Below are positions 1,137 to 64,000 of a DNA stretch of 64,000 bases, piece by piece. Source of the stretch: Gemmatimonadaceae bacterium (GTDB lineage Bacteria > Gemmatimonadota > Gemmatimonadetes > Gemmatimonadales > Gemmatimonadaceae); the NCBI GenBank assembly GCA_030835125.1, contig JAUQWM010000071.1, forward strand, positions 17,857 to 81,856, written 5' to 3'. Numbering within the stretch: position 1 is the stretch's first letter; every line of letters begins with the position of its first letter. The translations under genes were made by a program, and so were the position numbers. The notes under the pieces were generated by a model. It had not been told where the DNA came from. It saw only the letters and a list, made by a program, of their open reading frames with translations, and made no database searches.

Positions 1137-2717
1137 ATGAATCGACTGCTCACGACAGGCGTGTTCTCCCTGATGATCGCCGTCCATGCCCCGGCCCAGG
1201 CGCCGACGTATGACCTGCTGATCGCCGGGGGGATGGTGGTGGATGGCACGGGCAGCCCCGCATTCCGGGCCGACGTGGCGATCGCCGGGGGGCGGATCGC
1301 GGCGGTTTCCCGGACGCCCATTCCGGCGTCGGCGGCCCGGCGGCGGATCAACGCATCGGGCCTGATCGTCGCACCGGGCTTCATCGACCTCCACGCCCAC
1401 CTCGAGCCGATCCTCACCATGCCCGACGCGGAGTCGCACGTCCGGCAGGGCGTGACCCTGGCGTTAGGCGGAGCCGATGGCGGCGGGGCGAGCCCCATGG
1501 GGGCGTACCTGGCCCGCGTGGAGCAGGTGAAGCTCGGGATGAACGTGGCCTTCCTCACCGGGCACAACACGATCCGCCGCGCCGTGATGGGCACCGCCAA
1601 CCGCGCACCGACGCCTGACGAGCTGCAGCGCATGCGGGCGATGGTCGCGCAGGCGATGGGCGAGGGCGCCTTCGGGCTCAGCACGGGACTCCGCTATGTC
1701 CCCGGATTCTACTCACACGTCGACGAGGTAGTCGCGCTGTCGCAGATCGCGGCCGACTCGGGCGGGATCTACACCTCGCACCTGCGCGAGGAGGGCGTGC
1801 ACCTCCTGGAGGGCGTGGCAGAGGCGCTCGAGATCGGGCGGCGGGCGCGGATCCCCGTGGTGCTCACTCACCACAAGGCCGTCGGCCGCCAGATGTGGGG
1901 AAAGAGCGTGGTCACGCTCGCCATGGTCGACTCGGCGCGTCGCGCCGGGACCGATGTCATGATCGACCAGTATCCGTACGCGGCAAGCCACACGGGACTC
2001 GACATCCTCGTGCCGCCCTGGGCGCTCGCCGGCGGCGACTCGGCGCTGCGGCGTCGCCTCGGCGATCCGGTGCTCAACGACAGCATCGAGGCCGGCATCG
2101 TCGACAACCTGCTCAACGATCGGGGCGGCGGCGACCTGAAGCGCGTCCAGTTCTCGCGCGTGGGCTGGGACTCCACGCTCAACGGGAAGACGCTGCACGA
2201 CCTGCTGGTCCGGCTGAACATCGATCCCACGATCGAGAACGCGCCGCCGGTGATCCTCGACGCCGTGCTCAGGGGCGGCGCGTCAACGATCTACCACGTC
2301 CTGGACGAACAGGACGTCAGGCGGATCATGGCGCACCCGCAGACGATGATTGCCAGCGATGGCCGGTTGAACCGGCTCGGCGACGCGGTGCCGCACCCGC
2401 GCGCGTACGGCACGTTCCCGCGCGTGCTGGGGAAGTACGTGCGCGAGGACAAGGTGCTGACGCTCGAGCAGGCCGTGCGGAAGATGACGTCGATGCCGGC
2501 GACGCGGCTTGGCCTTACCGATCGCGGCTGCCTGCGCGAAGGATGCGCGGCCGACGTGACGATCTTCAGCGCGCAGCAGGTGAGGGACGTCGGCACGTAC
2601 GCCGACCCGCATCACTATCCCGAGGGCATTCCCTGGGTGATCGTGAACGGCGTGCCGGTGGTGGACAACGGCGCATTCACGACGGCACGGCCGGGGAAGG
2701 TGCTCCGGCGAAAATAG
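1137..2717 (+). CDS. Exported N-acyl-D-amino-acid deacylase-like amidohydrolase
   Basis: A 526-residue metal-dependent amidohydrolase of the D-aminoacylase group, expected to hydrolyse N-acyl-D-amino acids or related amides. A signal peptide occupies about residues 1-22. The beta-sandwich start (YDLLIAGGMVVDGTG) is followed by the metal motif HAH at 86-88 (GFIDLHAHLE), His215 in TSHLREEG, His245/246 in VLTHHKAVG and a late Asp in ASDGRLNRLG near 400. The usual Cys or Glu region after the HxH motif reads GGADGGGASP, so the bridging ligand is not obvious. It has a paralog 2.5 kb downstream and lies with an amidase and an M20 peptidase. A heptamer repeat begins at its stop codon. Family call is firm; substrate is inferred. 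Confidence 0.85.
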   Translation: MNRLLTTGVFSLMIAVHAPAQAPTYDLLIAGGMVVDGTGSPAFRADVAIAGGRIAAVSRTPIPASAARRRINASGLIVAPGFIDLHAHLEPILTMPDAESHVRQGVTLALGGADGGGASPMGAYLARVEQVKLGMNVAFLTGHNTIRRAVMGTANRAPTPDELQRMRAMVAQAMGEGAFGLSTGLRYVPGFYSHVDEVVALSQIAADSGGIYTSHLREEGVHLLEGVAEALEIGRRARIPVVLTHHKAVGRQMWGKSVVTLAMVDSARRAGTDVMIDQYPYAASHTGLDILVPPWALAGGDSALRRRLGDPVLNDSIEAGIVDNLLNDRGGGDLKRVQFSRVGWDSTLNGKTLHDLLVRLNIDPTIENAPPVILDAVLRGGASTIYHVLDEQDVRRIMAHPQTMIASDGRLNRLGDAVPHPRAYGTFPRVLGKYVREDKVLTLEQAVRKMTSMPATRLGLTDRGCLREGCAADVTIFSAQQVRDVGTYADPHHYPEGIPWVIVNGVPVVDNGAFTTARPGKVLRRK

Positions 2718-2737
2718 AGACGGGAGACGGGAGACTA
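2717..2737 (+). repeat. Heptamer array, 3 x GAGACGG, at a stop codon
   Basis: Three tandem 7-bp units (GAGACGG, GAGACGG, GAGACTA) begin with the last base of the deacylase stop codon, in the 45-bp gap between two convergent genes. It belongs with the other stop-codon heptamer arrays of this window but has a different unit sequence. Confidence 0.7.
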
Positions 2738-2762
2738 CTCTGGGGCGACCCGCGCGCGCTCC

Positions 2763-62401: not shown

Positions 62402-62414
62402 CCGGGAGTCATCC

Positions 62415-63956
62415 ATGCATTCCGTCACCGACACAACCCAGCAGCGCGAGCATCCTCCGGGCGTTGTGCCACCGGCGACGGAATCGCCGGGGCCGCCGCA
62501 CCAGCAGCCGGTGGCGATTCCCGCCAACGGCCCCGCCGGTGAGACGGTGTATGTGCCAGCCGGAACCCGGCTGGCACGGATCTGGGCCGACCTCAGGCTG
62601 GCGGCCCGGGGCACGCGCCACGACTACACCCAGGGACCCATCGGGCGCGCGATCTTCCTGCTCGCCGTCCCGATGGTGCTCGAGATGGCGATGGAGTCGA
62701 TCTTCGCGATCGTCGACGTGTTCTGGGTGGCCAGGCTCGGGGCATCGGCGGTCGCGACCGTGGCCCTGACCGAGTCGATGATGGCGATCGCCTACACGCT
62801 CGCCTTCGGGCTCGCCATCGGCACCACGGCCACGGTCGCCCGTCGCGTGGGCGAGAAGGACGCCGACGGGGCGGCGCGGGCGGCGGTCCAGGCCATCGCC
62901 CTCGGCCTCGTCGTGTCGCTCACGTTAGGTGCCCTCGGCGCCGTCTTCGCGCCCGACCTGCTGCGCCTCATGGGCGCCGGGCCCGACGTGCTCGAGCGGG
63001 GCACGGGATTCGCGCGCGTCATGCTCGGCGGCAGCGCGAGCGTGTTCATGCTGTTCGTGATCAACGCGGCGTTCCGCGGTGCGGGCGACGCCGCCGTCGC
63101 CATGCGCGTGCTGTGGTTCGCCAACGCGCTCAACATCGTGCTCGGCCCGCTGTTCATCTTCGGTCCCGGCCCATTCCCGGAACTGGGGGTGACCGGCGCC
63201 GCGGTGGCGACCACCATCGGCCGGAGCGCCGGCGTGCTGTATGCGGCGAGTCGCCTCTGGAAGGGCGCGGGGCACATCGCGGTCCGTCGCGAGCACCTGA
63301 CCGTGCGCCTCAGCGCGATGGTGAAGCTGGCAAGGCTCTGCGCGGTGGGAACGTTCCAGATCATGATCGGCACGACGGTCTGGATCGGCCTGCTGCGGAT
63401 CCTCGCGAGCTTCGGCAGCGTGGCGGTCGCCGGCTACGGCATCGCCATTCGGATCGTGATCTTCGCCATCCTGCCGGCGTTCGGCCTCAGCAACGCCGCC
63501 GCCACGATGGTGGGGCAGTCCCTGGGCGCGAAGGACCCGGCGCGTGCCGAGCGGGCGGTGTGGACCGCGTCGCGCTACAACCTGGCGTTCCTCGGGACGT
63601 TAGGCGTGCTCTTCGTCGCCTTCGCGCCGTGGATCGTCGCGCTCTTCACCCGGGAGCCGGACGTGGCGCACGTGGCGACGCTGGCGCTCCGGATCATCGC
63701 GCTCGGATTCCCGATGTACGCTTTCGGCATGACGATCACCCAGTCGTTCAACGGCGCGGGCGATACCTGGACGCCGACCTGGATCAACCTCGGGGTGTTC
63801 TGGGCGTTCGAGCTGCCGCTGGCCTGGGTGCTGGCCATGCACACCGGGCTGGAATACCGCGGCGGGTTCGTGGCGGTGATGGTGGGGTACTCGGCCCTCG
63901 CCGTCGTGAGCTCGGCCCTGTTCCGCCGGGGAAAGTGGAAGGTGAAACAGGTGTGA
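62415..63956 (+). CDS. MATE family efflux transporter with N-terminal extension
   Basis: A 513-residue inner-membrane exporter of the MATE family. The first 75 residues are a Pro/Gln-rich, non-hydrophobic extension (TTQQREHPPGVVPPATESPG) before the first TM (IGRAIFLLAVPMVLEMAMESIF in outline). Twelve TMs follow; the second half begins near LTVRLSAMVKLARLCAVGTFQIMIG, and SNAAATMVGQSLGAKDP is the conserved TM8 region. ATG 62415 has GGGAG 7 bases upstream, right behind the terminator. It is a different subgroup from the MATE at 18421. Two rare TTA codons lie in GTTAGG motifs (62924, 63599). A heptamer array overlaps its stop codon. Confidence 0.92.
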   Translation: MHSVTDTTQQREHPPGVVPPATESPGPPHQQPVAIPANGPAGETVYVPAGTRLARIWADLRLAARGTRHDYTQGPIGRAIFLLAVPMVLEMAMESIFAIVDVFWVARLGASAVATVALTESMMAIAYTLAFGLAIGTTATVARRVGEKDADGAARAAVQAIALGLVVSLTLGALGAVFAPDLLRLMGAGPDVLERGTGFARVMLGGSASVFMLFVINAAFRGAGDAAVAMRVLWFANALNIVLGPLFIFGPGPFPELGVTGAAVATTIGRSAGVLYAASRLWKGAGHIAVRREHLTVRLSAMVKLARLCAVGTFQIMIGTTVWIGLLRILASFGSVAVAGYGIAIRIVIFAILPAFGLSNAAATMVGQSLGAKDPARAERAVWTASRYNLAFLGTLGVLFVAFAPWIVALFTREPDVAHVATLALRIIALGFPMYAFGMTITQSFNGAGDTWTPTWINLGVFWAFELPLAWVLAMHTGLEYRGGFVAVMVGYSALAVVSSALFRRGKWKVKQV

Positions 63957-64000
63957 GTTGTGAGTTGTGAGTTGAGAGTTGAGAGTTGAGAGTTGAGAGA
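63953..64000 (+). repeat. Heptamer array overlapping the stop codon, cut by window edge
   Basis: Three GTGAGTT (63953-63973), three GAGAGTT (63974-63994) and a partial unit. The stop codon TGA lies inside the first unit. The unit differs from GCAGAGT and GAGACGG but the period is again 7. The array continues past the window. Confidence 0.9.

Follow-up and report, generated by a model that had tools for sequence, protein, structure and literature searches.

Stop-linked heptanucleotide arrays of many unit families in a Gemmatimonadaceae genome

The genome of a Gemmatimonadaceae bacterium (genome G000; 4.48 Mb, 99% completeness) contains well over a hundred short tandem arrays of 7-bp units, which often lie directly beside the stop codons of genes. 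Here we describe them first in a stretch of 64,000 nucleotides (contig C54, positions 17857–81856; hereafter the window) and then across a larger part of the genome. Within the window a loose detector finds 13 heptamer arrays, 11 of them no more than 18 nt from a called stop; the exceptions are the array at 28087 (92 nt from a stop) and one at 41499 (182 nt, within a called gene). A strict detector finds 10 arrays at period 7 and none at periods 4–6 and 8–12, and 60 dinucleotide shuffles of the window yield a mean of 0.017 strict arrays and a maximum of one. A sequence-only reading of the same DNA had named at least nine heptamer arrays at stop codons, and arrays are indeed present at all nine places, with some revision of detail: the pair placed at 8251 and 8418 is corrected to 8246–8314 and 8370–8409, the locus at 28199–28220 has its array near a stop together with the additional, distant array at 28087–28133, and the array placed at 48122 occupies 48118–48148 in degenerate form. 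One inverted pair in the window lies between the convergent genes of a ThrE-like protein (7009–8247; its match is under the family's curated cut-off) and an OPT family transporter. An irregular 21-mer, GCAGAGCGAGCAGAGTGCAGA, stands directly past both stops of this ThrE/OPT spacer, and its presence in both arms suggests arm-to-arm copying at that site.

The larger sample comprises 1,252,050 bases (28% of the genome), made up of the window and stretches of ten other contigs. These contigs and some of the far stretch ends were picked from a list of matches to the pattern TGCAGAKTGCAGAK (250 matches genome-wide; reversed control 0), and the density of one family is perhaps slightly raised; the results on position and orientation should be unaffected. 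Genes (1032) were called with our own codon-usage caller rather than a standard annotator; the position of a stop is independent of the start that the caller chooses. In this sample the strict detector returns 185 arrays at period 7, compared with 24 at period 6, 13 at period 9 and at most eight at each of the remaining periods between 4 and 15. Joined spacers alone hold 144 period-7 arrays versus at most 11 at each of nine other periods (4–6 and 8–13), and 20 shuffled versions of them give a mean of 0.05 and a maximum of one; the enrichment over a shuffled control thus holds for the spacers as it does for the window. The units themselves are diverse. Among the 151 arrays located in spacers, 147 lie within one mismatch of one of 12 reference units, the biggest groups being AGGCATC (28), TGCAGAG (24), GAGTTGA (18), GTGACTC (15), GAGGTCC (14) and GAGGGTC (12), and at least nine unit families coexist in this one genome. 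The variable unit at a constant 7-bp period that had been noted in the window recurs in this sample. At one place (L007, ~1555–1650) a long TGGTGC hexamer array directly adjoins a TGCAGAG heptamer array.

The arrays are far from evenly placed. Besides the 151 in spacers, 27 lie within called genes and seven at edges. The proposed stop link holds in this sample. Convergent and co-directional spacers contain 133 arrays, and 79 of these (or 79 of the full 151 in spacers) are no more than 18 nt away from a stop; random placement in the same spacers predicts 44.1 and never exceeded 63 in 1000 runs. Starts show no comparable link: 29 of 115 arrays are as close as this to one, and 28.9 are expected. 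Among spacers of at least 40 nt, arrays occur in 25 of 84 convergent, 69 of 375 co-directional and 13 of 135 divergent ones (convergent versus divergent, p 0.0002). Arrays also stand in the fusA-tuf, tuf-rpsJ and rpsJ-rplC spacers (C16 21440–23400, L144; genes identified by eye), and do so in a sister species too.

Orientation follows the position relative to the gene. Up to 18 nt from a stop, 69 of 76 arrays have their G-rich strand pointing outward from the gene, which bears out the claim that units read outward; up to 18 nt from a start, 22 of 24 do. The four spacer arrays without a unit assignment are excluded from these counts, and two of the seven non-conforming arrays near stops are of an AGGCTCG type that, judged by eye, was put on the wrong strand. 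Beyond 18 nt there is no preference (26 of 47; 8 of 17 on the stop side and 18 of 30 on the start side). Spacers with a single array keep the polarity: it is seen in 16 of 17 cases between convergent genes and, where genes are co-directional, in 22 of 30 arrays beside a stop and 15 of 17 beside a start. Where two arrays are neighbours within one spacer (41 pairs), 30 pairs converge, none diverge and 11 point in the same direction, so that the facing arrangement reported for convergent genes of the window recurs genome-wide; a looser detector with another unit orientation, applied to a smaller sample, gives 28 converging, two diverging and nine same-direction pairs (n = 39). The arms of facing pairs share a unit in 16 of 30 cases, where random partners give 4.0 and at most 10 in 2000 draws; with the looser detector the figure is 17 of 28.

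Two kinds of evidence bear on how the arrays grow and change. Identical units are adjacent in 176 of 308 instances (68 arrays) versus 133.1 after shuffling (maximum 150 of 500), an excess that fits the prediction of slippage, and four composite arrays combine successive units without a break in the 7-bp phase, as in the series CGTGACT, CCTGGCC, TCTGACC. Comparison with a sister species of the same genus, MAG_27 (G001; OPT transporter 88%; 352 kb compared), covers 19 orthologous spacers: six have arrays in both species, two in our genome only (one of them weak), four in the sister only (two of them doubtful because the sister spacing is 852 and 1465 nt) and seven in neither. The unit family differs in two of the six shared spacers, a point in favour of the sequence-only reading. 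One is the ThrE/OPT spacer, with TGCAGAK in this genome and GCGATGA in MAG_27. In the tuf-rpsJ spacer (genes by eye) our genome has GTGAATC and the sister mostly GTGACTC or GTGATTC, with both arms changed. An array site can thus probably outlive its unit sequence. Elsewhere in MAG_27 (L110, ~5280–5545) a longer-repeat array of the CCTGGAAGCCCGCNA type lies between two facing heptamer arrays.

Heptamer arrays also lie inside coding sequence, where DNA polymerase genes are conspicuous. Among 19 arrays situated 60 nt or more inside called genes, nine are in dnaE2, three in imuB and one in dnaE1, the others being in a cassette-adjacent radical SAM gene (one), a Nudix gene identified by eye (two) and other genes (three), and arrays within one cassette are not independent events; dnaE2, imuB and dnaE1 together account for 9255 of 1,112,373 coding bases. 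The open reading frames run through the arrays in all three genes. The radical SAM gene, an upstream gene that is only suspected to be imuA, and the genes imuB and dnaE2 together contain 18 strict arrays of seven unit families in ~8 kb (C8 88349–96471, equivalent to L093 8349–16471). Five Pfam domains identify DnaE2; ImuB was recognised from a single domain match at cut-off together with homologs named ImuB, and DnaE1 from matches to solved structures of DNA polymerase III alpha subunits.

The best 120 homologs listed for each protein show that the insert sites extend beyond this genome. The 24 best DnaE2 homologs all have an insert at four internal sites and 18 of the 24 have one at the N-terminus, an insert being counted from six residues upwards with conserved edges included. 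The heptad peptides vary between proteins (SHESRVT, IPDSRFP, RPEARGQ, PRPQAPG), and over 121 aligned rows residue identity within the inserts is 0.145 at lag 7 versus 0.084–0.101 at lags 3–6 and 8–15, and 0.067 in the core. In a comparison of our own protein and the 30 best DnaE2 homologs, the 4-mer Jaccard similarity between different sites of one protein (0.0428) exceeds both that of the same site across proteins (0.017) and that of permuted sites (0.0117; maximum 0.0154 of 300). DnaE1 has a single insert site (residues 532–555 of our protein), which exceeds the minimum length of 12 residues in 92 of 121 rows, with a lag-7 identity of 0.279 versus at most 0.116 at lags 3–6 and 8–12. In the alignment this insert is absent from structure 2hpi, which we take to be the Thermus enzyme, and its site presumably falls shortly ahead of the third catalytic aspartate. 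The predicted structure of one DnaE1 homolog (P0122) has a mean predicted local distance difference test score of 62, with the insert and much of the polymerase core below 50, and is too poor a model to locate the loop. For ImuB (120 rows) lag-7 identity is 0.132 versus at most 0.101 at lags 3–6 and 8–12, some of the counted blocks not being true inserts. Some ImuB homologs carry a second short repeat, SQACLSS and its multiples (alignment columns 1218–1254). The array-coded loops of DnaE2 and ImuB are not to be mistaken for conserved domains.

The explanation we favour, with moderate confidence, is that the stop-linked 7-bp arrays of at least nine families were likely grown by slipped replication, probably rewritten by array-to-array copying within the genome and left where selection tolerates them. 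Template switching or gene conversion, acting between arrays in register, would replace the units. The link to stops would arise as arrays spread through the little-constrained 3′ side of genes until a stop codon has to be kept. We infer such a spread up to the stop from the fit of the arrays to it: among 76 genes with an array between −25 and +12 nt around the stop, 30 have the stop codon overlapped by the array, 12 of these arrays beginning exactly at its second base (distance −2), and the remaining 46 arrays begin 0–12 nt past it. Overlapping GTGACTC arrays supply the TGA of the stop, and several AGGCATC, AGGGTCG and AGGTCGG arrays have in common the AG of a TAG stop; the choice of stop codon in array-linked genes shows no significant shift (chi-square p 0.17). 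Arrays would then be left standing mainly just past stops and in a small number of DNA polymerase loops, and the facing pairs with the same unit may have gained a secondary role as stem-loops. Among the targeting mechanisms proposed in the sequence-only reading, slippage has left its signature, and a mobile element finds no support.

Several observations weigh against this explanation. Arrays that lie 0–18 nt past a stop are still G-rich outward in 41 of 46 cases, and selection for keeping the stop cannot account for that; the gaps between stop and array (1–14 nt, 46 arrays) hold no decayed repeat, with 111 of 328 matches versus 104.5 expected (p 0.16). The unit family is kept in four of the six spacers with arrays in both species, and arrays in neighbouring spacers share a family weakly (16 of 89 versus 9.0 expected; 15 of 99 versus 10.6 in a larger set, p 0.10), so that distance-dependent copying is not shown. 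The arm lengths of the 16 same-unit pairs are uncorrelated. In the polymerases a strict 7-residue period appears in 14 of 121 DnaE2 rows (0–5 rows at lags 5, 6, 8, 9 and 10), and the residue lag of 7 is itself a proxy, the homologs having been compared as proteins and not as DNA.

A role as bidirectional transcription terminators or mRNA 3′-end stem-loops, in which the facing arms would pair in either transcript, is unlikely as an account of the arrays as a whole. We folded 93 array spacers of 50–350 nt and 160 sampled array-free spacers and applied a cut-off of z −3. Same-unit pairs fold strongly, with 15 of 16 below the cut-off and a median z of −7.8; arrays are most frequent between convergent genes; and the tuf-rpsJ spacer keeps its hairpin in both species (z −6.9 and −6.7) despite the change in both arms. 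Same-unit pairs make up just 16 of the 93 folded array spacers, however, and the other classes fold no better than array-free spacers (21 of 160; 7 of 17 in the convergent subset): different-unit pairs fall below the cut-off in one of 11 cases, single or other array spacers in 11 of 66, and a stable stem-loop is found in 12 of the 77 array spacers other than same-unit pairs. The genes rpsJ and rplC form one operon as a rule, yet arrays lie between them (genes by eye) in both species. A hairpin role is therefore likely to be confined to same-unit pairs, and the terminator or 3′-end function suggested in the sequence-only reading does not hold as a general rule.

We regard as distinctly doubtful the possibility that the arrays are polar boundary elements, at which a G-rich repeat in RNA that runs out of a gene, in sense beyond its 3′ end or in antisense beyond its 5′ end, would slow or stop RNA polymerase, for example through an R-loop, whatever the unit. 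In its favour, the polarity is the same at either end of a gene, in 91 of the 100 arrays no more than 18 nt away, and also in single-array spacers, and the compositional background is weak: in spacers without arrays the skew is 0.044 past stops and −0.124 before starts, whereas past stops with arrays it is 0.259. Transcripts of Xanthomonas, according to the available text of Rehm et al. 2015 (PMC4692102), start and stop in repeats able to form G-quadruplexes (G4) more than in control repeats. Two families with equal G and C nevertheless obey the rule partly or well (AGGCATC in 17 of 28 arrays, GTGACTC in 13 of 15, by side), and the start side alone might be explained by avoidance of Shine-Dalgarno-like motifs and start codons.

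To a further idea suggested by the polymerase inserts we give little credence: in Gemmatimonadaceae, the replicative DnaE1 and the mutasome DnaE2-ImuB would hold heptamer-coded loops at fixed sites and themselves generate the 7-bp stop arrays of the genome, with units, loops and perhaps the period co-evolving in each species. Two readings fare worse. It is highly improbable that the arrays are traces of a mobile palindromic element, be it a repetitive extragenic palindromic (REP) element with its associated tyrosine transposase (RAYT), a miniature inverted-repeat transposable element or a foldback element with heptamer arrays as arms, for although the arms face each other, are spread over many contigs and converge in 30 neighbouring pairs with none diverging, this genome of 99% completeness has no match to the Y1 transposase (PF01797; present in 9 of 20 genomes searched) or to the reverse transcriptase domain RVT_1, the 30 loops between arms look unrelated by eye, and 283 masked flanks yield five matches. 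Equally remote are G-quadruplex elements of the kind proposed for the Xanthomonas and Nostoc heptamers: placement and polarity match and GGGAATC is among the families here (9 of 151 arrays), but only 13 of 151 spacer arrays have at least four GGG tracts on their G-rich strand, and another 47 have at least four GG tracts. This count refutes the reading for the general case; it may hold for a subset.

The arrays are not peculiar to one genome. Runs of at least five GAG-N4 units occur at least once in 152 of 395 genomes of the phylum, this genome topping the list with 412, and the units differ between species; as the pattern favours GAG units and has a built-in control identical to itself, the scan speaks only for spread and for the diversity of units. 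A further 351 kb came from 14 relatives, most of which were selected because of their high counts and one of which is masked; here period 7 yields 24 arrays versus at most nine for eight other periods. The stop link points in the same direction in MAG_27 (11 of 19 arrays near stops versus 6.6 at random, maximum 12 of 1000) and in the other relatives (6 of 12 versus 2.5, maximum seven), but with such small counts, within the random maxima, it does not go beyond every random placement. Twelve genome stretches from the same family (ten of 20 kb, one of 8 kb, one wholly masked) contain no strict array, and neither does a further 40 kb of one of these genomes, G016. The stretches sampled from it (L122, L229–L230) contain 9-bp arrays but none of 7 bp, although its whole genome has 305 GAG-N4 matches.

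Twelve of the arrays of the window and the insert-bearing dnaE1 gene are collected in Table 1. An Rfam search of the window gave no match at gathering score, and a tRNA scan of it found none. Two amidohydrolase genes that lie near each other, 1137–2717 and 5208–6869, have the same best family (PRK09061-like, under its cut-off).

Table 1. Heptamer arrays of the window (window coordinates) and the DnaE1 gene with its insert
Feature	Position	Strand	Remarks
GAGACGG array, 2.7 copies	2717..2735	+	shares last stop-codon base of gene 1137–2717
TGCAGAG array	8246..8314	+	past stop of gene 7009–8247; left arm of inverted pair
TGCAGAK array	8370..8409	-	past stop of 8421–10412 (-), OPT transporter family; right arm of inverted pair
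TGCAGAG array	26764..26791	+	1 nt past stop of 26304–26762
TGCAGAK array	27259..27292	+	1 nt past stop of 26892–27257; left arm
TGCAGAK array	27331..27360	-	5 nt from stop of 27366–28001 (-); right arm
TGCAGAT array	28087..28133	+	92 nt off, no stop link; left arm, co-directional spacer
TGCAGAT array	28200..28218	-	7 nt from stop of 28226–28444 (-); right arm
AGCGCAA array	32558..32580	+	18 nt past stop of 29372–32539
Degenerate GATTGCA array	48118..48148	+	4 nt past stop of 47154–48113
AGAGTGC array	53040..53085	+	starts with AG of TAG stop of 52454–53041
GTGAGTT to GAGAGTT array	63952..64000	+	includes TGA stop of 62511–63956; runs to window end
DnaE1 gene with heptamer-coded insert	G000 C22 178480–182040, across L107/L108	-	

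Heptamer repeats are found in several bacteria, with no account of why the unit should be seven or how the repeats spread. A genome with at least nine families under one placement rule, a sister species with other units at some of the same sites and polymerase genes that record turnover across some 100 homologs make origin, spread and period directly testable. Known repeats offer partial parallels. The short tandemly repeated repetitive (STRR) sequences of cyanobacteria are tandem heptanucleotides. REP elements are found preferentially between convergent rather than divergent genes, and Rickettsia palindromic elements insert in frame into genes; both REP elements, with the bacterial interspersed mosaic elements (BIME) they form, and the Rickettsia elements have a conserved palindromic sequence, whereas our arrays conserve the period but not the sequence. 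The arrays resemble the Rickettsia elements in placing in-frame repeats at tolerated protein sites (dnaE2, imuB and dnaE1) and differ from them in that the insert sequence varies between relatives; the Y1 transposase and conserved palindromic core that mark REP/BIME with RAYT are both absent here.

Among heptamer systems, the Beggiatoaceae have TAACTGA direct repeats at many intergenic sites, together with some related variant heptamers (MacGregor 2015, PMC4679880); as far as the available text describes them, they share with our arrays the occupation of many spacers, but have one main unit and are tied to start codons. Geobacter metallireducens carries GGACCGG in four copies at 49 places and MTYCTGA in five copies, some of them intragenic (PMC2700814). 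These too are many-locus heptamers, but with a fixed unit and copy number, and the accessible part of that source states no link to stops.

The closest counterparts are the G-rich heptamers described by Rehm et al. 2015 (PMC4692102), GGGAATC in Xanthomonas and GGGGAYT in Nostoc, which are found near stops in the sense direction and ahead of starts in the antisense direction. The sequence-only reading had known of no heptamer form tied to stop codons, and in this respect it is contradicted by these repeats. Convergent repeat pairs number 70 in Xcc and 75 in Xac, the repeats are rarer between divergent genes, the prominent ones sit at different genes in the two species, and dnaE is named among the repeat-associated genes; the same paper cites an earlier proposal in which the repeat period reflects how much DNA the polymerase holds (PMC4692102). 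Judged by the available text, our arrays agree with them in the 7-bp tandem period, the location in spacers and the genome-wide dispersal (185 arrays), in being G-rich on the sense strand past stops (69 of 76) and on the antisense strand before starts (22 of 24), and in the convergence of paired repeats (30 of 41, none diverging). They depart from them in two respects: the Xanthomonas and Nostoc genomes have one unit type each, as opposed to at least nine families here, and their unit is G4-capable with a preference for four copies, whereas G4 potential is mostly absent here (13 of 151). Because there is no single G4 unit, we regard the arrays as a variant of the Xanthomonas and Nostoc kind rather than a plain member of it. 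Polymerase inserts are not mentioned for those heptamers in the text available to us (PMC4692102), and neither the multi-unit form nor the inserts are described in the titles and abstract openings of the open-licence literature surveyed. What appears new here is that many units follow a single placement rule, that a sister species can have a different unit at the same site, and that DnaE2, DnaE1 and ImuB bear heptad inserts at fixed sites, those of DnaE2 being more alike within one protein than between proteins.

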